This document shows positions 17 to 12,479 of a stretch of 64,000 nucleotides of DNA, piece by piece. The notes under the pieces are model-generated. The model did no database searches, was not told the origin of the DNA, and was given only the letters and a program-made list of their open reading frames with translations. Source of the stretch: an uncultured Nitrospirales bacterium (GTDB taxonomy: Bacteria; Nitrospirota; Nitrospiria; Nitrospirales; UBA8639); the NCBI GenBank assembly GCA_958295805.1, contig OY282373.1, positions 1,893,001-1,957,000 of the forward strand, read 5' to 3'. Made by a program: the position numbers and the translations under genes. Each line of letters opens with the position of its first letter. The stretch's first letter is position 1.

Positions 17-568
17 CTAATTCCCCTCTATGTTTTCTAAGGACACCATGTCGATTTCCTTGGATTTCAGTCTATATAACCTGAATTTCTTCTTGTATTT
101 CAGAAACTTGCTATTTGGTATTTGTTCCGTACTACCCATACAACCGTTATATTTTTCTTGTATGTTCTGCATCTTTTCATTCGCCACATCACTTGAATGC
201 TGATCGATACGCTTCTCAAGAAAATCTGCCTCTCTGATCCAATCTCCCCAAATGGCTACTGCTGACTCGTGCCGTGCTACTTTGTGCGTCCACTGAAATA
301 TAGTGCAATCCAGTGCCTGTACTATTGCTGTGACAAGAGGCAAGATAAAAATAAACGACAATATCAAATCACCCACCAACATTCCCCGATAATAAAAACC
401 AATTAGTGCGGCCAAAGTTACAGACAATAAAACAACAAAAAATTCTTTCCAGTTACGAAATCTGGCATATCTTTCTTTTAACTCCGAGTGAGAAAAACGG
501 CAAAGTTCCGCTTTTCCCCTCAGTTTTTTGAGAAATTCCTGATTTGATTGAACAGCGTCGTTTTGCAT
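17..568 (-). CDS. Two-TM SLATT-like effector of a CBASS operon
   Basis: Small membrane protein of 183 residues, and the last gene of the CBASS operon. An N-terminal basic helical region is followed by two hydrophobic segments (about residues 43-63 and 67-88), then a charged cytoplasmic helical tail. This is the layout of SLATT (SMODS/SLOG-associated two-TM) proteins, which are thought to form pores that kill the infected cell once a cyclic nucleotide is made. The family call rests on layout, the H-E-S-A-x3-W-G region after the second helix, and context. The frame can be extended three codons to a TTG, but ATG 568 is preferred; it lies directly after the stop of the ATPase gene, so translation is probably coupled. 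No strong Shine-Dalgarno is visible. Other two-TM effector families remain possible. Confidence 0.75.
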   Translation of the reverse strand: MQNDAVQSNQEFLKKLRGKAELCRFSHSELKERYARFRNWKEFFVVLLSVTLAALIGFYYRGMLVGDLILSFIFILPLVTAIVQALDCTIFQWTHKVARHESAVAIWGDWIREADFLEKRIDQHSSDVANEKMQNIQEKYNGCMGSTEQIPNSKFLKYKKKFRLYRLKSKEIDMVSLENIEGN

Positions 569-569
569 G

Positions 570-1460
570 TTAGTCAATACGAGGGCTTGGTTTCACGACC
601 AATGCTGCTTCTTTCAGAATGTCAAACGTTAATCCCTGATTCGGAAAGGCACGAGCAATAGCTTCTGGAAGAAATCGTAGACGAAAGTCTGAAAATGTAT
701 AACCATTATCTCCGTAATGACCCCCTGCTGAAGTCAAAGACGCTAATTCTCTTAGCTCTTTCGATGTCAACCCTATTCCTTGAAGATCATGTTTCAATAG
801 TTCCAGACACTCTTCTTCATTCGGTCGAGAAAATTCTATGTGTAACGCAGCACGCCTAACGACAGCCTGATCAATGACGTTTGCTCTATTCGTACACAGA
901 AACACAACCGCTCGGCCGCCTACCTGTCGAATTTCATCAATTTTCTGTATCAGTGTGTTGACGGCAGCCTTTTCTTCCTGGTGCATTTGTTCGGTAGACC
1001 TAAGCGATGCGATAGAATCTGCTTCGTCTATCAATAGAAAGGACAGGCGTCTTTTGCCTGCTTGAGTTGTCAAATTTTCAAAGGCATCTTGGATAAGTTG
1101 GCTCATTTCTCCATGTAACCCCTTGCCTCTCACGCGGGTACTCAGTTTGAGGAGGAAACCTTCTCTTTCCATTTCCTTTGTCAGTCGGTTTGCCGCACAC
1201 TCAGCCGTAACGGTTTTTCCCGTCCCAACATCCCCACTAAATAGAAAAAGCGGATATCTTTGTTGGATTACCTTACATAATGGGATAATTTGTTCGTAGT
1301 ACTTCTTACTCCACTCATCTACACGATCAGACATTAACACTACCATTAAATGGTTTTTCAATGCTTCATAATGTCTCTCAAAGCCGACAAGTGTTTCGGC
1401 AATATTTTCTAACTCACGTGACGGGAGTTCTCGCTGAGTATCAAACGTATCTTGTACCAT
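570..1460 (-). CDS. cap6: TRIP13/Pch2-like AAA+ ATPase (CBASS Cap6)
   Basis: A 296-residue AAA+ ATPase. Walker A GDVGTGKT is at residues 76-83, Walker B FLLIDEAD at 141-148, and a sensor-1-like C-T-N-R lies near 190. In type III CBASS the TRIP13-like protein (Cap6) remodels the closed HORMA partner and so switches off cyclic-nucleotide synthesis. The identification rests on the intact AAA+ core and on the position directly downstream of a HORMA gene and a CD-NTase gene. The ATG lies three bases after the HORMA stop, and the stop is almost contiguous with the effector start, so the four genes form one translationally coupled unit. Its size is close to known Cap6 proteins. Codons are AT-rich compared with the housekeeping genes to the right, consistent with horizontal acquisition. 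Confidence 0.9.
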   Translation of the reverse strand: MVQDTFDTQRELPSRELENIAETLVGFERHYEALKNHLMVVLMSDRVDEWSKKYYEQIIPLCKVIQQRYPLFLFSGDVGTGKTVTAECAANRLTKEMEREGFLLKLSTRVRGKGLHGEMSQLIQDAFENLTTQAGKRRLSFLLIDEADSIASLRSTEQMHQEEKAAVNTLIQKIDEIRQVGGRAVVFLCTNRANVIDQAVVRRAALHIEFSRPNEEECLELLKHDLQGIGLTSKELRELASLTSAGGHYGDNGYTFSDFRLRFLPEAIARAFPNQGLTFDILKEAALVVKPSPRID

Positions 1461-1464
1461 CGTT

Positions 1465-1956
1465 TTATCCCTTTAAGCCCACAAATGTATTCCGCTGTAA
1501 TCCGTAGTTATTGCTAGAATAGAGTCTGACCCCATCGTTTCGCATTCCAGAGTCATTGGTTGATAAGGATGATGGTCCCCAATTTAATTTTAACTTTCTT
1601 GATTGTTTAAGCTTTTCAAACTTTTGGTTATCAGAGCATTTAATAAGCACACATAGTGTGCCATTAGGTAAACGTGGCCACCTGTTCTCCCCCGGTCTTT
1701 GGGAATCTGATACTATGCCGCCTACCACGGAATATCGATAAACTCTGACCAAATGTCCATAGAAGTCATACAATTGTACATGAACGTCACTCAAGCACTC
1801 TTCTTGGGCCATTAGAAGTATGTCGTATGCATGATTTTGGGCATGCTCTAATCCCATTGCTTGTGTTCTTATAGCAAGCATTTGCAAGTTCGCCTGAAAA
1901 TTTTCGAAAACTTTACGAATATCTGTTCTAGTATATGTCTGCGTAATGGTGCTCAT
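1465..1956 (-). CDS. cap7: Bacterial HORMA-domain protein (CBASS Cap7)
   Basis: A 163-residue protein resembling bacterial HORMA proteins of CBASS. It starts with a Ser/Thr/Tyr-rich strand and a long helix, has a central L-x-D-F-x-G-x-x-V-R-x-Y region, an R-P-G-x-x-x-W-P motif and a C-terminal N-Y-G-L-Q-R segment. HORMA proteins bind peptide motifs, activate the CD-NTase, and are opened again by the TRIP13-like ATPase encoded next. The frame is open 16 codons further upstream, but ATG 1956 is chosen because AGGAGGAAC stands just before it and because it overlaps the CD-NTase stop as TAATG, a coupled stop/start. One HORMA gene is visible, so this is a single-HORMA type III system. Confidence 0.88.
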   Translation of the reverse strand: MSTITQTYTRTDIRKVFENFQANLQMLAIRTQAMGLEHAQNHAYDILLMAQEECLSDVHVQLYDFYGHLVRVYRYSVVGGIVSDSQRPGENRWPRLPNGTLCVLIKCSDNQKFEKLKQSRKLKLNWGPSSLSTNDSGMRNDGVRLYSSNNYGLQRNTFVGLKG

Positions 1957-2906
1957 TAGTGTTCCTCCTGAATGTTGAAGCTTGTCCCAAAGACTTCCTT
2001 CCACAAATTCAATGTCCTTCCGGCCTCTTGCACAGTTTGTGCATAAGAAATGGTTTCAAAGCCGGTTTCAGCCACTTCTACCACCTCATCCCATTCCCTC
2101 TCAGATAAACTGACCGTATTGTTCTCATTGTTTGTTGGATCTGCTATCCATGGGGCACTGCCCGCTCGTGGTCCAATAGCACATGAGAAATACACTTCGA
2201 CGGGATTACCGCTGCCGAAAAACTCGAAGAAGGTGATAATTGCCTGGTTTATCGAGAAGTCAGATATTCTTCCTGTCTCAATCAAATGTGCTACTGCCAA
2301 TTCAATTGAGAAAGAGGACAGTTCCAGTTCCTGGTAGTTTCTCCAACTTTTCAGGATGCGAACAATAGAAGTGAAATTCGAGCACCTGCCTTTTATTTTG
2401 CTTACGAAATCCAATTGCTTGTCAACGCTGGTTTTGAACTCACCTGAATGGAGCTTTTTTCGGGGTTGTCTGCCATAAGTCGTATTACCTTTTTCCGGGA
2501 TAAATGGCACGATATCAACCTCAAGGCCAGATCCTCTGAATACAACGCCGATAGTTTTTTGACCATCAGTAAAATCTGATCCTTGCTTGTTAGGATATGC
2601 TTTACACAGTACCTTAATGATTTCTTCTCGAAGTTCCTCTGCGTCAAATAAAGTATTTTCTTCAAGGTCCAGATAGAATACCATGTCTATATCAAGAGGA
2701 TAGTCTCCTTTTGATTCCAGGGCGGTGCCTTTCTTCCATGAGCCTGCTCTTCTTACCTTCGTCACTTTAGTTTTTTCCATACCATTTATAGCTTTAAGAA
2801 CATTGTTCTTTAAGTTATCAATCTGGCTTGCGTAAGAATTTTTTTTCTCTTGAGTGAGTTTAATTCGGCTGACGTAGTTGATTAGTTGTTGGTTTGTATA
2901 TTCCAT
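1956..2906 (-). CDS. CD-NTase (cGAS/DncV-like nucleotidyltransferase) of CBASS
   Basis: A 316-residue nucleotidyltransferase of the CD-NTase family, the enzyme that makes the cyclic oligonucleotide alarm signal in CBASS. The signature G-S-W-K-K-G-T-A-L is at residues 55-63, catalytic aspartates are D72 and D74 (L-D-I-D), and the third acidic residue is D131 in L-E-V-D-I-V-P-F. The helical C-terminal half is typical. Association with HORMA and TRIP13 genes suggests the CdnC/CdnD-type branch, but the clade and product cannot be fixed from sequence reading alone. ATG 2906 has a perfect AGGAGG six bases upstream. It is the first gene of the operon, and its promoter region carries an inverted repeat. 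Confidence 0.92.
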   Translation of the reverse strand: MEYTNQQLINYVSRIKLTQEKKNSYASQIDNLKNNVLKAINGMEKTKVTKVRRAGSWKKGTALESKGDYPLDIDMVFYLDLEENTLFDAEELREEIIKVLCKAYPNKQGSDFTDGQKTIGVVFRGSGLEVDIVPFIPEKGNTTYGRQPRKKLHSGEFKTSVDKQLDFVSKIKGRCSNFTSIVRILKSWRNYQELELSSFSIELAVAHLIETGRISDFSINQAIITFFEFFGSGNPVEVYFSCAIGPRAGSAPWIADPTNNENNTVSLSEREWDEVVEVAETGFETISYAQTVQEAGRTLNLWKEVFGTSFNIQEEH

Positions 2907-3132: not shown

Positions 3133-4725
3133 TTATGAGGGCAACACGCGTTGATGGATGCGTTGAACCTGGGTCAGAACGGATCGATAGCGGGCGAGAA
3201 ATGCAGGGGCGGACGGCCAGCCCATGCGGATGGCACATTTTGCCAATTCGGCGGGCTGTAACGGGAGGGTGTGCGTTTGCAATTCATCAACCATCTGGAG
3301 TTTATGCTCGACGTCACGCAAAAACACATAGGCGTCGGTCAAGTCGCTGCAATCAGAGGCGGATAAAAGGCCGGCCTCTCTGAGGCGTTGAAGGCTTTTG
3401 AGCGTATTCGGTTCAAATAATCGCGGATGCTTGACAACGTGCGTGAGTTGCAGCGTCTGAACAAGAAATTCAACGTCCCGAATGCCGCCGGGACTGAGTT
3501 TCACGTTGCGTTCGCTCTCCCCTCTCCGTTTCACGTTCTGTTGAATCTGCACGCGGAGAGTACGAACCGTATCTCCGATGGTTTGATTCGTCCGTTCTTC
3601 TTGACCGATGATAAACGGTCGGATTTTTCTGAGAAACGCCTGACCCAAAGACCGTTGCCCCGCAATGGACCGCGCTTTGAACAACGCCAGGCGCTCCCAG
3701 GCTCTCCCCCGCGTCTGGTAGTATTTCACGGCTTCATGGGTCGAACACGCCAATGGTCCAACCGTCCCCTCAGGCCTCAATCGCATGTCGACTCGAAAGA
3801 CACGCCCCTCCGGCGTAGAAGCCGACAACACGTGGGTCAACTCCCTCGCCAGCATTTGAAAAAATGATTCACTGGAGAGACTCGTCCGTCCTTTCACGGT
3901 TTTCACGTGGCCGTGACTCGACGCGTATAAATAGATCAAGTCCACGTCAGAGCTGTAATTCAGTTCACGTCCACCCAATTTGCCCATTCCCAACACCACG
4001 AACCCGGTTTCAACGGTTGTCTCCCGGGGACCTTGATGATACGGAATTCCATATCGTCTCTGAAGGCGTTCATTGACGAGTTGATAGGCGGCATGGATCA
4101 CGAGTTCGGCAAGTTGCGACAGAGATTGAACCATTTCCCTCACTGACGAAACGCGAAAGAGATCACGTGCCCCGATACGCAGCATCTCACGGCGATGAAA
4201 GCGTCGAAGGGCGCCAAGTTTGTGCTCATGGGTCTTTACAAGATCAAGGGACTGCTGCAACGTGGCCTGGAGTCGATTTTTGACGGGTCGGGACTTGAGA
4301 ATGCGTTCTTCTTCAATCCAATAGATGAGCATGGGATCTCGTATGAGGGTTTCGGCCATCGCCGGACTGTTGCCAAACAGGATACAAACCAATTGCAAGA
4401 CAGGTGGAGCTTGCGCCAAAAAACTGAAGACCTGGGCTCTGGCTTTACCGGCATTGAGATACCGCTCCCATTCATTTAAGGCTTGATCCGGATCAGGCGT
4501 CGTTGAAACGGTTTGCAAAAGGTCGGGAAGAATCACGGCAAGGAGTTTTCGACTTCGGGGGTCGCCCGCCATAAGTTGAAGATTGGCGTCGGCTTTCTCC
4601 CAATCATGGAACCCATACGGGGACAACAACCGTGCCACATCCGAACGCGCCAGATCGGGCGACAGCAGAAGCGGTCGAGGATCCAAGCGTGAGGACGACG
4701 GTGATTGAGGAAACGTGGGCGTCAT
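3133..4725 (-). CDS. glnE: GlnE-type protein, adenylyl-removase (N-terminal) half
   Basis: A 530-residue protein equivalent to one half of the usual ~950-residue bifunctional GlnE, which controls glutamine synthetase by adenylylating and deadenylylating a tyrosine. It has G-M-G-K-L-G-G-R-E-L followed by S-S-D-V-D-L-I (D260, D262) and the third carboxylate D313 in V-D-M-R-L-R-P. It then has the helical P-G-G-I-R-D-V-E-F domain near residue 415 that ends each GlnE half. The S-S-D-x-D-L-I and V-D-M-R-L-R-P wording is that of the N-terminal adenylyl-removing half of E. coli GlnE rather than the C-terminal half. It is transcribed divergently from the other GlnE-type gene, with 78 bp between the starts. 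ATG 4725 is the only good start. Confidence 0.85.
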   Translation of the reverse strand: MTPTFPQSPSSSRLDPRPLLLSPDLARSDVARLLSPYGFHDWEKADANLQLMAGDPRSRKLLAVILPDLLQTVSTTPDPDQALNEWERYLNAGKARAQVFSFLAQAPPVLQLVCILFGNSPAMAETLIRDPMLIYWIEEERILKSRPVKNRLQATLQQSLDLVKTHEHKLGALRRFHRREMLRIGARDLFRVSSVREMVQSLSQLAELVIHAAYQLVNERLQRRYGIPYHQGPRETTVETGFVVLGMGKLGGRELNYSSDVDLIYLYASSHGHVKTVKGRTSLSSESFFQMLARELTHVLSASTPEGRVFRVDMRLRPEGTVGPLACSTHEAVKYYQTRGRAWERLALFKARSIAGQRSLGQAFLRKIRPFIIGQEERTNQTIGDTVRTLRVQIQQNVKRRGESERNVKLSPGGIRDVEFLVQTLQLTHVVKHPRLFEPNTLKSLQRLREAGLLSASDCSDLTDAYVFLRDVEHKLQMVDELQTHTLPLQPAELAKCAIRMGWPSAPAFLARYRSVLTQVQRIHQRVLPS

Positions 4726-4767
4726 GATCGTGAAGAGGTTTCTGATTATAGAAGAGGAAGAAAACCC

Positions 4768-4795
4768 TTACAATGGGAGAGTGTTAGAGTATACT
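4768..4795 (+). promoter_or_regulatory. Sigma-70-type promoter of the ACT-GlnE gene
   Basis: TTACAA (4768-4773), a 16-base spacer and TATACT (4790-4795) are close to consensus. The predicted transcription start (about 4802) is practically at ATG 4804, so the mRNA would be leaderless, or translation would begin at the in-frame ATG 4825. Confidence 0.5.
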
Positions 4796-4803
4796 GCCTA
4801 GTC

Positions 4804-7101
4804 ATGAGCAAGATACCGGAACCAATGGAAGTACAAAAGCGATGCCCTGACGTCGATCCGGCGATGATCGCCGACTTTCTGGGCCGCATGGATCCAGATT
4901 ATTTTTCACAATTTTCGCCTGCGACGATTGCCGCACACGTGGCCTTGGCCGACACCTTGACCCTGGACCAACCCTGTGCGCTTCAGTTTCAACGAAACAA
5001 GGGGACGAACCATTACCAACTGACGGTTGTCGCGTACGATTATTTTTCGGAATTCGCCGCCATCTGCGGGTTACTGGCGGCCTACCGTCTCGACATTCGC
5101 GAAGCCGATATTTTTACCTACCTGGATCAACCCGCTCCTTCCCGCGACCCTGCGTTGCAACCCTCAATTCGTATGCGACGAAACCGGCTGATCCGTCGAC
5201 CTGCTCCGCGAGCCGGTCTCTCAAGAAAAAAAGTCGTGGACGTGTTTCGAGTCCAGGCCTTATCGGGTAGAGCGTTCCCTGCCAAGGTTCAGAAAGAACT
5301 GTCTCGGGAATTGACCGAACTGCTTCGATTGCTCGAGTCCCGTAAAACGCAAGAGGCACGACGTTGGATCAATTGGAAAATCGTACAAACTCTCGGGAAA
5401 AGACCGCCGCGTCTCTCGGACCACATCCAGCCGATCAAGCTCCATTTCAACAATGAACGTTCTCCACGAGAAACGGTCATAGACATCCGCGCCGTTGATT
5501 CTCCCGCCTTTCTCTATACATTTGCGAATGCTTTGACCATGAGAGGAATGTATTTGTCGAAAGCCACAATTGACGGAGACGGGACAAACGTACGCAATCG
5601 TTTTTTTGTCACCGGTCAGCACGGACGGAAAATCGTGACGACGCGGGAGCAACAGGAATTAACCGTCGCCGCGGTCCTTATCAAAGAATTTACCCATTCC
5701 CTCACCTGGGCGCCGGATCCCGGCAGCGCATTGGATCATTTTGATCAGTTTCTCGACCAGATACTGGAAAACCGTTCCACCACGCGACACGTGAACTGGC
5801 TCACTCGTAAAGATTCGTTGGCGAATCTCGCACGACTCTTTGGAACAAGCAACTTCCTCTGGGAAGACGTTCTTCGCCGACAACACGCCAACCTTTTGCC
5901 CATCATTCAAAACGTTCACGCGAAACAGGTGCCGTCATCAAAAACGCACCTTTCCCATACGTTAAGGACCAGACTCAAACGACACAAACAATCCGACGCC
6001 CGAAAAGCAGCCTTGAATCAATTCAAGGATGCCGAGATGTTCCGCATCGATCTCCACCACATTCTCAAAGGAACCCCTCTCCCCGAATTTTCAACGTCGC
6101 TGACGAACCTCGCCGAAGTGATCCTGGAACAAGCCCTCAGAGAAACTCAGACGGTGCTCACGCATTCGATCACGCCGTCTCCCGTCGTGAAAGGAACCTC
6201 CGTCAGCATCTGTGGCTTAGGCAAGCTGGGAGGTTGTGAACTGGGGTATGCCTCTGACGTTGAGATTATCTTCGTGTACGACGTTCATCCGAAGACGCCC
6301 TCTGCCCAGAAGCCGATCATTGGTGAATATTACGAACGGCTCGTCCAGGAGTTTCTCCATTGGATCGAGGCAAAACAGGAAGGAATCTTTCAAGTTGATA
6401 CCCGCCTTCGGCCCCATGGAGAAAAAGGCCTCTTGGCTTCTTCCCTGGAAGAAATCAAACGATACTACGGTCCCGGCGGCGGGTCCGCACCCTTCGAACG
6501 GCAAGCATGGCTGAAACTGCGACGCGTTGCGGGAGACGCGACGTTGGGCCGAAAAATAGAGGACTACCGGGATACATTCGTCTACGGCAATGAGCCCTGG
6601 CCTTTAGAGACGGCGATCCATTTACGACGGCGGCAGATGCGAGAACTGGTTCCTCCAGGCAAGATTCACGCGAAATACAGCCCGGGCGGACTCATTGACC
6701 TTGAATATACCGCACAATACCTTCAATTACTCCATGGACACCGTGAGCCCGCTCTCCGGACCACCAACACGCTCCAGGCGCTCAAAGCCCTCCGTGAGAC
6801 CAATCATCTCTCACGTCGGGACGCCGCAACGTTGACGGATGATTACCTGTTCATGCGGAAGGTCATTGACGGATTACGCATTGTGAGAGGACACGCCAAA
6901 GACTTGGTGCTGCCGCACTCAGGATCGGAAAACATGATCTCGCTCGCCCGAAGACTCGGGTATATCACCGACGTGTGGAAAGATGGAGCACGAGCGTTTG
7001 AACGGGAACTGCACGAACGAATGACTCGCTCACACGCAATTTTTGTCAAGCTCTTTCAAGCGAATCGATGGAAAGGGGAAAAAACAAGGAAGAGAAAATA
7101 A
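4804..7101 (+). CDS. ACT-domain GlnE-type adenylyltransferase half
   Basis: A 765-residue protein. The C-terminal ~320 residues are a GlnE nucleotidyltransferase plus its helical domain: G-L-G-K-L-G-G-C-E-L, then S-D-V-E (D485, E487), D532 in V-D-T-R-L-R-P, and a P-G-G-L-I-D-L-E-Y segment. The second acidic residue is Glu where GlnE normally has Asp. The N-terminal ~440 residues are not GlnE-like. They contain two ACT-like segments (about 70-105 and 220-270; the second reads V-I-D-I-R-A-V-D-S-P-A-F-L-Y) resembling the ligand-sensing ACT domains of GlnD. It probably supplies the adenylyl-transfer half missing from the divergent neighbour, with built-in glutamine sensing; this is inference. The frame continues upstream to a TTG at 4705, but that start would overlap the divergent gene and precede the promoter. 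Confidence 0.8.
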   Translation: MSKIPEPMEVQKRCPDVDPAMIADFLGRMDPDYFSQFSPATIAAHVALADTLTLDQPCALQFQRNKGTNHYQLTVVAYDYFSEFAAICGLLAAYRLDIREADIFTYLDQPAPSRDPALQPSIRMRRNRLIRRPAPRAGLSRKKVVDVFRVQALSGRAFPAKVQKELSRELTELLRLLESRKTQEARRWINWKIVQTLGKRPPRLSDHIQPIKLHFNNERSPRETVIDIRAVDSPAFLYTFANALTMRGMYLSKATIDGDGTNVRNRFFVTGQHGRKIVTTREQQELTVAAVLIKEFTHSLTWAPDPGSALDHFDQFLDQILENRSTTRHVNWLTRKDSLANLARLFGTSNFLWEDVLRRQHANLLPIIQNVHAKQVPSSKTHLSHTLRTRLKRHKQSDARKAALNQFKDAEMFRIDLHHILKGTPLPEFSTSLTNLAEVILEQALRETQTVLTHSITPSPVVKGTSVSICGLGKLGGCELGYASDVEIIFVYDVHPKTPSAQKPIIGEYYERLVQEFLHWIEAKQEGIFQVDTRLRPHGEKGLLASSLEEIKRYYGPGGGSAPFERQAWLKLRRVAGDATLGRKIEDYRDTFVYGNEPWPLETAIHLRRRQMRELVPPGKIHAKYSPGGLIDLEYTAQYLQLLHGHREPALRTTNTLQALKALRETNHLSRRDAATLTDDYLFMRKVIDGLRIVRGHAKDLVLPHSGSENMISLARRLGYITDVWKDGARAFERELHERMTRSHAIFVKLFQANRWKGEKTRKRK

Positions 7102-7801: not shown

Positions 7802-9211
7802 TTAAACATCGTAGTACAAAAAGAATTCATGTGGATGAGGCCGAATTCTGACCTGATCAACTTCATTCTCCCGTTTGTAGCCGATCCAGGCTTCCACCAG
7901 GTCTTCGCTGAAGACGCCTCCTTTCAACAAGAATTGATGGTCATTTTCTAAATTGGTCAAGGCCTCGTCCAAACTTGAGGGAACGGTGGGAATATTAGCC
8001 GCTTCTTCCGGTGCTAAATCATAGAGATTTTTGTCCATGGCTTCGCCCGGGTCGATTTTATTCTGAATGCCGTCAAGTCCCGCCATTAACATCGCGCTGA
8101 ACGCCAAGTAGAAGTTGGCGGAAGGATCAGGAAATCTCACCTCAATGCGTTTGGCTTTGGGATTGGGAGAATACATCGGAATCCGGATGCCGGCCGATCG
8201 ATTCCGGCTCGAATACGCCAACAACACGGGAGCTTCAAACCCGGGCGTCAACCGTTTATACGAATTGGTCGTCGGATTCGTAAACGACGCCAAGGCCGGC
8301 GCGTGTTTCAGCACTCCGCCGATGTAATACAAACACGTTTCGGACACGCCGGCGTATTCTTTGCCGGCGAACATCGGTTTTCCGCCTTTCCATATACTTT
8401 GATGCGTGTGCATCCCCGTCCCGTTATCCTGGAATAAGGGTTTCGGCATGAACGTCGCGGTTTTGTCGTGACGCCGGGCCACGTTCTTGACGATGTATTT
8501 ATACATCATCATTTTGTCGGCCATCGCCAGTAACGAATCAAAGCGAAGGTCGATTTCAGCCTGTCCGGCCGTGGCCACTTCGTGATGATGTTTTTCAACG
8601 TAAAGCCCGGCCTTCTCCATTTCCCGGACCATCTCGGAGCGGATATCCTGTTGCGTATCCGTCGGAGCAACTGGGAAATAGCCTTCCTTGTGCCGAGGAC
8701 GCGATCCTAAATTGTGCCCTTCTTCTCCAGAGTTCCAGATGCCTTCCTCCGAATCAATAAAATAGTATCCGGAGTGACTGTTCTGATCGTAACTGGCATG
8801 ATCAAAAATAAAGAACTCGGCTTCAGGCCCCCAATACGAAATGTCTCCGATTTTGGTGCTCTTGAGATATTGTTCCGCTCGTTGAGCCACCCCCCGCGGG
8901 TCCCGTTCATAACCGGCCCGGGAGATCGGTTCCTGCACGTCACACACCACGCTGAGCGTAGGAATTTCCGTAAACGGATCCAACCTGACGGTGTTCGGAT
9001 CGGGAACCACCAACATGTCACTATTTTGAATCGCTTTCCACCCCCGGATGGAGGATCCGTCAAATCCTGCTCCCTCTTTGAACAGATCAAGAGTGAATTC
9101 ACAGGTCGGAATAGAAAAATGCTGCCACGTCCCCGCCAAATCCACGAATTTCAAATCAACCATTTCCACTTTGTTCTTTTTTGCAAAATCCAACGCTTCA
9201 CGCGGAGTCAT
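7802..9211 (-). CDS. glnA: Glutamine synthetase type I
   Basis: A 469-residue GSI enzyme, which makes glutamine from glutamate, ammonia and ATP as a dodecamer. It has F-D-G-S-S-I-R-G-W in the N-terminal domain, the M-H-T-H-Q-S ATP/metal region, N-R-S-A-G-I-R-I-P in the active site, and the adenylylation loop K-N-L-Y-D-L with the target tyrosine exactly at residue 397, as in E. coli. That fits control by the two GlnE-type genes 3 kb away. ATG 9211 is preceded by AGGAGGTAGGG. It is last in the porin-amt2-glnK-amt1-glnA series, with a 120-bp gap from amt1 that could hold its own promoter. No sigma-54 site was found in that gap. Confidence 0.98.
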
Positions 9212-9331: not shown

Positions 9332-10639
9332 TCATCCCCATCGGGAATACGCACGTTCATCATGCTGGCTCAAATCCAGTCCCACTTCCTCATCTCTTGA
9401 TGAAACCCGAAGGCCAACGGTCAGATCCACGATTTTCAAAATAACGTAGGTGCCCACAAAGGCAAACAGCACCGTGACAACGGCCAATATCAGTTGAACC
9501 TTGAATTGTCCGGGATTTCCGAAAAATAATCCCTGCGCGCCCACGGAAGCCAACAACCCCGTCGCCAATATTCCGGTGAAGCCGCCGACTCCATGAATAC
9601 CCACCACGTCGAGCGAATCATCGTACCCGAGCTTGATTTTCCAGAGGACGGCCACATAACAGATGACGCCCGCAACCAATCCAATCACTAAAGCCGACAA
9701 GGGCGCGACAAATCCGGCCGCCGGAGTCACGGTGGCCAACCCCGCGATAATGCCGCTCGCCAAGCCGAGCATGGTTGGTTTGCCGGTCCGGATCCATTCC
9801 GCCACCATCCAACTGATCCCACCGGCACACGCCGCAATGTGCGTGGCCACGAACGCCACCGCGGCCCCACCATTGGCACCCAGGGCGCTGCCGGCGTTAA
9901 ATCCAAACCACCCGAACCACAACAATCCGGTTCCCATGACCGTCATGGGAAGATTGTGAGGAGGCATGGGCTCAACCCCGTAGTTTCTGCGCTTTCCCAA
10001 CACCAAGGCACAGGCGAGGGCCGCAAACCCGGAACTGATGTGAACGACCGCCCCTCCGGCAAAGTCCAGCGCGCCCATTTCTGCCAGCCATCCTCCACCC
10101 CACACCCAATGAGCCAACGGCGAATAAATGAAGATTGACCAGAGCACGGCAAAGAGGAGCAACGCCGTAAATTTCATCCGCTCGGCAAAGCTGCCGGTAA
10201 TCAACGCCACCGTAATGGCGGCAAACATCAGTTGAAACACCATGAACACTAAATGAGGAATACCCGTGCCCGGATAGGCTTCTTCGCCGACCCCCAGCAA
10301 ACCGATAAATTCGAGGCCGCCGATCACTCCGCCGACGTCAGTGCCGAAGGCCAGGGAATATCCCACCAGCACCCATACAATACTGATCAGGCACAGGATA
10401 ATGGCTGTGTGCATGAGCGTCCCGAGGATATTTTTACTTCGGACAAGCCCGCCGTAAAACAGAGCCAATCCCGGCAAGGTCATACAGAGCACGAACGCCG
10501 AAGACACCAGAACCCACGCCGTATTTCCCGTATCAATGGCCTCCGGTGTTCCGTCCTGGGCCCATCCATCTGCAAGACCGCAGCAGAAACTCAGCACCAC
10601 AACCAAAAACCACGTGAATGAGACGGTTGATTGCTTCAC
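9332..10639 (-). CDS. amtB: Ammonium transporter, first copy
   Basis: A 435-residue Amt/MEP/Rh channel in the inner membrane, with a cleavable signal-like N-terminus and about 11 membrane helices. The pore histidines are present in V-V-H-I-S-S-G and G-I-H-G-V-G-G, and the N-terminal A-W-V-L-V-S-S and F-Y-G-G-L-V-R motifs are typical. The C-terminal tail (V-G-L-D-L-S-Q-H-D-E-R-A-Y) is the region that couples to PII. The start is GTG 10639 with AAGGTGAA upstream. It lies between glnB/K and glnA; a close paralogue lies on the other side of the PII gene. Ammonium or ammonia conduction gated by PII is expected. Confidence 0.96.
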   Translation of the reverse strand: MKQSTVSFTWFLVVVLSFCCGLADGWAQDGTPEAIDTGNTAWVLVSSAFVLCMTLPGLALFYGGLVRSKNILGTLMHTAIILCLISIVWVLVGYSLAFGTDVGGVIGGLEFIGLLGVGEEAYPGTGIPHLVFMVFQLMFAAITVALITGSFAERMKFTALLLFAVLWSIFIYSPLAHWVWGGGWLAEMGALDFAGGAVVHISSGFAALACALVLGKRRNYGVEPMPPHNLPMTVMGTGLLWFGWFGFNAGSALGANGGAAVAFVATHIAACAGGISWMVAEWIRTGKPTMLGLASGIIAGLATVTPAAGFVAPLSALVIGLVAGVICYVAVLWKIKLGYDDSLDVVGIHGVGGFTGILATGLLASVGAQGLFFGNPGQFKVQLILAVVTVLFAFVGTYVILKIVDLTVGLRVSSRDEEVGLDLSQHDERAYSRWG

Positions 10640-10718: not shown

Positions 10719-11072
<354 letters not shown>

Positions 11073-11171: not shown

Positions 11172-12479
11172 TTACGCATAAGCCCGTTCGTTGTGTTCAC
11201 TCAGATCCAGTCCGATCACCTCGTCCTCTTTGCTCACGCGAAGCCCTATCAACGTGTCCAGCACTTTAAGAATAATAAACGTGCCCACAAAGGAAAAGAC
11301 CCACGTGGCTCCCACGCCCACGACCTGAATAAGGACCTGCCCCGGGTTTCCAAAAAACAATCCCGTTCCCCCGCCCACGCTGGCAAAGAGTCCGGTGGCA
11401 ATCGCCCCCCAGGTTCCTCCGATCCCGTGAATACCCAGCACGTCAAGGGCATCATCATAACCGAATTTGGATTTCCACACCACGGCCAGATAACAGAACA
11501 CTCCGGCGCCCACGCCGATCCACAACGCAGAAATCGGGCCGACAAAACCCGCGGCAGGTGTAATCGCCACCAACCCGGCAATGGCGCCGCTGGCTCCGCC
11601 CAGGACGGTCGGTTTCCCGCGATAGCTCCATTCCACGGCCAGCCAGGCCAGGACGCCGGCAGACGTCGCCACGTGCGTCGCGACGAACGCCCCCGCTGCA
11701 ACCCCATCGGCCGCCAGGGCGCTCCCCGCGTTAAATCCAAACCACCCCACCCATAATAACGCCGCCCCCACGACCGTAAAAGGCAGATTATGGGGAAGCA
11801 TGATATTTTCGTGCCCGTAGCCGTGCCGTTTACCCAGGACTAACGCCGCGGCCAAGGCTGCCACGCCGGAACTGATGTGTACGACGGTGCCGCCGGCAAA
11901 ATCCAGTGCCCCTAATTCGCCTAACCATCCGCCGCCCCAGACCCAATGGGCCAGTGGCGAATAGATCAAGGTCACCCACAGCACCGCAAACAGCACGTAG
12001 GCTCCGAATTTCATGCGTTCCGCAATGGCCCCGCTGATCAGGGCCACCGTAATGCCTGCAAACATAAGTTGAAACACCATGAACGCAAGATGCGGGACGG
12101 CAGTCCCGGGAAAGGCTTCTGGGCCTACGCCGTTTGACCACAAAAAGTCAAAAGCGCCGATGACGCCGCCCACGTCCGTGCCGAAGGCAATCGTGTAGCC
12201 CCACAACACCCAGACCACGCTGACCACGCACACGGAAATCAAACTGTACATCATCGTGCTCAGCACGTTTTTATTCCGAACCATCCCACCGTAAAACAGA
12301 GCCAGGCCCGGAATGGTCATGGCCAGCACCAACGCCGAAGACGTCAAAAGCCATCCCGTATCCCCGGCGCTGATTGGTGCGCTTCCTTCATCCGCCAAGG
12401 CTGACCCGGCGAAACAGGAAAGTATGAAGACTGAAAAGAATACACTTATATGTTTTGTGAAAGCTCTTGTGTTCTCCAT
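11172..12479 (-). CDS. amtB: Ammonium transporter, second copy
   Basis: A 435-residue Amt protein very similar in plan to the copy at 9332-10639, with the same pore motifs (V-V-H-I-S-S-G, G-I-H-G-I-G-G), signal-like N-terminus and PII-contacting tail ending H-N-E-R-A-Y-A. The two probably arose by duplication, but their N-termini and many loop residues differ, so they may have different affinity or expression. It sits 27 bp downstream of the porin gene and is almost certainly co-transcribed with it. ATG 12479 has an AGGAGGAAG-type site upstream, inside the short gap. Confidence 0.96.
   Translation of the reverse strand: MENTRAFTKHISVFFSVFILSCFAGSALADEGSAPISAGDTGWLLTSSALVLAMTIPGLALFYGGMVRNKNVLSTMMYSLISVCVVSVVWVLWGYTIAFGTDVGGVIGAFDFLWSNGVGPEAFPGTAVPHLAFMVFQLMFAGITVALISGAIAERMKFGAYVLFAVLWVTLIYSPLAHWVWGGGWLGELGALDFAGGTVVHISSGVAALAAALVLGKRHGYGHENIMLPHNLPFTVVGAALLWVGWFGFNAGSALAADGVAAGAFVATHVATSAGVLAWLAVEWSYRGKPTVLGGASGAIAGLVAITPAAGFVGPISALWIGVGAGVFCYLAVVWKSKFGYDDALDVLGIHGIGGTWGAIATGLFASVGGGTGLFFGNPGQVLIQVVGVGATWVFSFVGTFIILKVLDTLIGLRVSKEDEVIGLDLSEHNERAYA

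Follow-up and report, generated by a model that had tools for sequence, protein, structure and literature searches.

GlnE is the classic example of a single chain in which two enzymes oppose each other, and the way in which a signal passes between its halves has long been questioned. In the bifunctional GlnE of Escherichia coli (b3053; PRK11072), an adenylyl-removase (AR) unit and an adenylyltransferase (AT) unit, both with a D-x-D motif, are held in a single protein, which puts AMP on Tyr397 of GlnA and takes it off again under the control of PII and glutamine. We analyzed a DNA stretch of 64,000 nucleotides (the window) from an uncultured Nitrospirales bacterium (assembly GCA_958295805.1, contig OY282373.1, positions 1,893,001 to 1,957,000), in which these two units are encoded by two genes on opposite strands. 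The locus resembles GlnE in having both nucleotidyltransferase units and their helical domains, one of each per half, with nitrogen-control genes adjacent. It differs in that the AT unit carries a GlnD-type head with two ACT domains and has D-x-E in place of D-x-D. We call this second protein ACT-AT.

Other described systems share single features with this locus. GlnD has a nucleotidyltransferase, an HD domain and two C-terminal ACT domains, and its linker after HD together with ACT1 and ACT2 corresponds to residues 1-320 of ACT-AT. However, only the linker and the ACT domains are common to the two proteins: no HD domain was found in ACT-AT, its ACT region precedes the catalytic unit and does not follow it as in GlnD, and the ligand-loop Gly is mostly lost. 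An AT unit can work on its own: isolated C-terminal AT domains of GlnE adenylylate glutamine synthetase (GS) when expressed in vivo in bacteria other than these (PMC9249168). The engineered form uAT, that is, GlnE truncated to its AT domain, is similar to ACT-AT in this respect (PMC9249168) but is artificial, with neither ACT domains nor a separate AR partner. Plant ACR11 and ACR12 also have a GlnD-like tandem of ACT domains, and for ACR11 an interaction with the glutamine synthetase of plastids has been reported (PMC3173338, PMC12702975); the two are, however, described as regulatory proteins of the ACT-repeat type with two ACT domains, with the ligand-loop Gly kept and a debated role. Kanamycin nucleotidyltransferase ANT(4') transfers adenylyl groups with an Asp-x-Glu Mg2+ site (PMC4631478), but it is a small antibiotic-modifying enzyme and its structural match to the ACT-AT model was marginal (1kny, E 1.2). 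We found no description of a GlnE with ACT domains, or of this arrangement in Nitrospira, in the open papers that were searched, which is not proof of absence.

Both proteins of the window matched Pfam PF03710 (2.9e-71 for AR and 2.2e-39 for ACT-AT) and the helical domain PF08335 (3.2e-30 for AR). On the NCBIfam model of bifunctional GlnE, which has 946 positions, AR corresponded to positions 69-436 and ACT-AT to positions 507-871. The scores were 371.8 and 196.7 bits, both under the cut-off of 487 bits, and annotation may therefore misname or overlook the two genes. The first-pass annotation had described a removase-like half of 530 residues and a transferase-like half of 765 residues as separate divergent genes, and these reading frames with their Pfam matches bear it out. 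The length of 765 residues is counted from the ATG at 4804; an alternative TTG start at 4705 would give 798 residues.

A full-length GlnE elsewhere, which the same annotation had named as evidence against its proposal, was not found in the complete genome by the genome-wide PF03710 search. The only matches were AR, ACT-AT and the nucleotidyltransferase domain of GlnD, and this GlnD is an ordinary intact one with HD and ACT domains, away from the locus. That is, AR and AT are not joined in one chain of about 900-1000 residues, as they are in the full-length GlnE of other Nitrospirota classes (925-1070 residues). Many genomes have the pair, with identities of about 40-70%, and it is thus not due to chance. 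We also considered that an assembly break or a frameshift had divided one ordinary glnE. This explanation has practically no chance of being right and was rejected, because the genes lie on opposite strands, the genome (2.90 Mb, class Nitrospiria) is a single contig, and the same pair occurs in dozens of independent assemblies.

For alignments and trees, full-length GlnE of 19 Nitrospirota genomes from other lineages, of E. coli and of other bacteria was cut into halves; other phyla were represented by E. coli and by chromosome-like records of a plasmid collection. In the maximum-likelihood tree of 64 units, which omits the two actinobacterial GlnE, AR joined the N-halves of GlnE and the 765-residue protein joined the C-halves (support 100/99.6). 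The two genes thus fall with opposite halves, as had been supposed, and an origin of both from one half is ruled out. The Arg of the GGIR signature was present in 27/27 N-halves and in all 37 AR sequences that cover this column; no C-half and no AT had it. AR also retains the full GGIR(D/E)xEF signature, the D-x-D motif and the third Asp. As a separate observation, both GlnE halves of one Nitrospirota locus (L099, genome G001) grouped with proteobacterial GlnE and not with other Nitrospirota, and transfer is possible there.

The head of ACT-AT, residues 1-320, aligned with the C-terminus of GlnD, and the alignment takes in the stretch that precedes ACT1 (HHalign probability 99.75, E 2.7e-27). 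The head matched TIGR01693 at 6e-20, and BLASTP against the GlnD of its own genome gave an E-value of 6e-8. The structure of ACT-AT predicted from an alignment of 37 sequences had a predicted local distance difference test (pLDDT) score of 82.9 and a predicted template modeling score of 0.79; it superseded an earlier, poor model from a shallow alignment (pLDDT 65.6). This model matched the E. coli GlnE domains 1v4a and 3k7d, and matches to ACT domains were weaker. Two ACT-type sheets are present in the predicted structure and, together with the homology to the GlnD ACT domains, identify the ACT fold. Two different GlnD-like genes (L159 and L164) were seen in one genome of another class (G076).

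The catalytic motif of ACT-AT reads S484-D485-V486-E487 in the numbering of the 765-residue protein, and E487 stands exactly where the first-pass annotation had placed it, at the usual second Asp. D-x-E was present in 42/42 aligned ACT-AT units and, once more loci were counted, in 71/71 sequences, some genomes being present in two collections. In contrast, D-x-D was present in 27/27 N-halves, 26/26 C-halves and 39/39 AR sequences, and D-x-E in 0/92. Thus ACT-AT does not have the Asp-x-Asp of an AT unit, the Asp-to-Glu change is fixed across the clade, and random decay of E487 in one genome is ruled out. Three more residues of ACT-AT set it apart from the other units and are likewise fixed: W to F564, A to L572 and F to Y635. 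Across about 40% identity, D485, E487, D532 and K624 are invariant in ACT-AT, and E634 also stays acidic or invariant. Judging from these alignments, the catalytic unit of ACT-AT is one that was changed as a set and then held.

It had been proposed that the Asp-to-Glu change may alter metal binding or the activity itself. The change is real, but D-x-E need not break metal binding, as kanamycin nucleotidyltransferase coordinates Mg2+ through Asp50 and Glu52 (PMC4631478). Since D-x-E is a functional Mg2+ site in that enzyme, we consider the catalytic activity of ACT-AT to be, on balance, the better expectation. ACT-AT might instead be catalytically dead and solely a regulatory partner of GlnA or AR, with GlnA not adenylylated, and a change from D to E at the catalytic metal position would fit such a loss. 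However, a uniform replacement in all 71 sequences is not expected of a dead enzyme, nor is the retention of the three catalytic acidic positions, K624 and E634 described above, and the Mg2+ site of the kanamycin enzyme (PMC4631478) also speaks against it. We regard a dead enzyme as very improbable.

The distribution of the two genes was surveyed in 396 Nitrospirota genomes for ACT-AT and in 270 genomes of the class for AR. Strong matches to ACT-AT, counted from the match listing, were found in 142 of the 396 genomes, all of them Nitrospiria, and the AR model matched 230/270. Genomes of other Nitrospirota classes matched the ACT-AT profile only at positions of about 300-750, within full-length GlnE frames. 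The split, ACT-headed arrangement thus appears to be class-wide in Nitrospiria, replacing the two-in-one GlnE. The listed Nitrospiria genomes without AT are also without AR, and most of them retain GlnA and GlnD; the two genes appear to have been lost together in some members of the class. AR was seen without a clear AT in three genomes (G195, G214 and G337). Several fairly complete genomes (G161, G243, G341, G315, G297, G263 and others) have neither AR nor ACT-AT and have GlnD and a GlnA with its Tyr kept.

We think it probable that the GS modification cycle is divided between two enzymes that are controlled separately, AT having one more regulatory input. In this cycle the AR protein would remove AMP from GlnA, and ACT-AT would attach AMP to the conserved Tyr of GlnA. 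The head would let the "off" reaction take a signal directly, beside PII, and this signal might be glutamine, a different small molecule or a partner protein. Control of the AR reaction probably remains with PII and PII-UMP, since the genome still has an intact GlnD and one PII with its Tyr51. Metal is most likely still bound by E487, in an active site that would have been re-tuned by several linked changes. Finally, the adjacency of the genes on opposite strands, with a shared promoter block in family f1, would allow separate and possibly competing transcription.

Several observations weigh against this divided cycle. In a quick tree of 104 rows that includes the two actinobacterial GlnE, the support for the AT placement was just 75 and the actinobacterial C-halves sat on the N side, an odd placement that is likely long-branch trouble. 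In addition, the GlnA Tyr is kept also in genomes without both AR and AT. Its conservation is thus no proof of adenylylation, and we dropped this Tyr as a diagnostic.

A third observation is that AT sits on a long stem of 1.2 changes per site. Such a stem, together with the replacements at E487, F564, L572 and Y635 that are fixed only in the ACT-AT clade and with the PII and AmtB genes among the neighbors, would also suit a nucleotidyltransferase derived from the GlnE C-half that modifies, for instance, a transporter or PII in place of GlnA, or that works with a different nucleoside triphosphate, while AR would act by itself or on some other modified protein. However, AR, the presumed reverse enzyme, has ordinary active-site motifs and is lost together with AT, the pair lies beside the sole glnA, and PII is already served by the intact GlnD. 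A change of substrate therefore seems unlikely to us.

The last observation concerns the Gly of the ACT beta1-alpha1 ligand loop, which is nearly invariant in ACT domains and coincides with the Ser site of E. coli phosphoglycerate dehydrogenase (PMC3173338). In ACT-AT this residue was replaced by Ala in 33/37 ACT2 and by Ser or Ala in 36/37 ACT1 domains, whereas GlnD had Gly in 23/23 ACT2 and 21/23 ACT1 domains. The domains had been called ACT-like sensing domains: they are indeed ACT domains with homology to the C-terminus of GlnD, but it is not certain that they sense glutamine, because the Gly is mostly replaced. Judged from these loops, the ligand of the head, if any, may not be glutamine. 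The loss of Gly from both domains would also be expected if they no longer bind an amino acid and form a surface for dimerization or for docking to GlnA, AR or PII, in which case the fusion would bring no direct sensing of a metabolite. Apart from this Gly, conservation of the loops is very strong (YDYFSEF and D(S/T)PAFLY), but a changed ligand site would be so as well. We consider such a surface quite possible, without favoring it, and it is compatible with the divided GS cycle.

The coordinates of the features of this locus are shown in Table 1.

Table 1. Features of the AR/ACT-AT locus in the window, with positions counted from its first nucleotide
Feature	Position	Strand	Basis
AR gene: stand-alone adenylyl-removase unit of GlnE	3133..4725	-	530 residues; PF03710 and PF08335; tree
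AR protein domains: nucleotidyltransferase with D260-x-D262, plus GlnD_UR_UTase helical domain	3133..4725	-	
Promoter block ATTATA-N-TTACAA-N-TATACT	4745..4795	.	Promoter scan; shuffles; class-genome search
ACT-AT gene: GlnD-type linker and tandem ACT (~1-320) fused to GlnE adenylyltransferase unit (~325-750)	4804..7101	+	765 residues
N-terminal regulatory region, residues 1-320: helical segment, ACT1 (~58-152), ACT2 (~212-300)	4804..5763	+	GlnD C-terminus homology
D485-V486-E487 codons, altered metal-binding pair	6256..6264	+	D-x-E in 71/71 ACT-AT
glnA	7802..9211	-	PF00120 1.5e-135, single genome match; adenylylation-site Tyr kept
amtB-type ammonium transporter, first copy	9332..10639	-	Own sequence; neighbor kept in most family-f1 loci
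glnK/PII	10719..11057	-	Sole PII found in genome; T-loop Tyr51 present
amtB-type ammonium transporter, second copy	11172..12479	-	Own sequence; conserved neighborhood

The AR and ACT-AT genes form a head-to-head pair. Genes for GlnA, PII and GlnD are each present in one copy in this genome; the GlnA Tyr aligns with Tyr397 of E. coli, and PII retains Tyr51. The database relatives found were all Nitrospirota. In family f1, the gene order AR(-) AT(+) glnA(-) amtB(-) PII(-) amtB(-) was seen in most loci with sufficient flank. AR and AT were neighbors on opposite strands in every locus in which both were read, and they were mostly divergent. They are convergent in five deep-branching loci (L118-L121 and L130, of families f5, f6, f8 and f9), in two of which (L119 and L120) the 3' ends of the genes overlap by 4 bases. 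The adjacency of AR and ACT-AT has thus outlasted a change of orientation. On its other side the AR gene adjoins a CBASS-like anti-phage operon of four genes (17-2906, minus strand), which encodes an oligonucleotide cyclase, a bacterial HORMA protein, a TRIP13-type ATPase and a two-transmembrane effector.

The promoter block between the two genes reads as a -10 for AR (TATAAT on the minus strand) and a -10 for AT (TATACT on the plus strand) around a central TTACAA/TTGTAA. Its exact pattern occurred once in the window and in 0 of 100 shuffles. Of 267 class genomes, 23 had a single match, the reversed-pattern control giving 0, and all 20 matches that were checked adjoin an AR gene; the pattern was derived from these sequences, is confined to family f1 and has decayed in most members of the genus to which the window belongs. 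From this layout, the central block could serve as the -35 for both outward -10 elements, so that polymerase may occupy one promoter at a time. The plus-strand -10 (within 4787-4806) ends 8 bases ahead of the AT start codon, with similar spacing in several relatives, and the AT message may be near-leaderless.

The divided GS cycle can be extended to a class-wide switch, in which the D-x-E AT would read a metabolite, possibly not glutamine, through its ACT domains, largely independently of PII, while the separate reverse enzyme would compete for the promoter block. We consider this extension rather doubtful.

The Nitrospiria, which include nitrite oxidizers, comammox bacteria and their relatives, appear to offer naturally separated halves of GlnE, one of them with a GlnD-type head, so that each half and its inputs can be tested directly. 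They also offer an adenylyltransferase that stands alone by nature, for use in nitrogen-release engineering, which now employs truncated GlnE. Because the genes are separate, and the "off" half has a GlnD-related head and a remodelled active site, our findings suggest that the two reactions of the GS switch are independently controllable. This bears on the control of nitrogen assimilation in bacteria that live on ammonia or nitrite.

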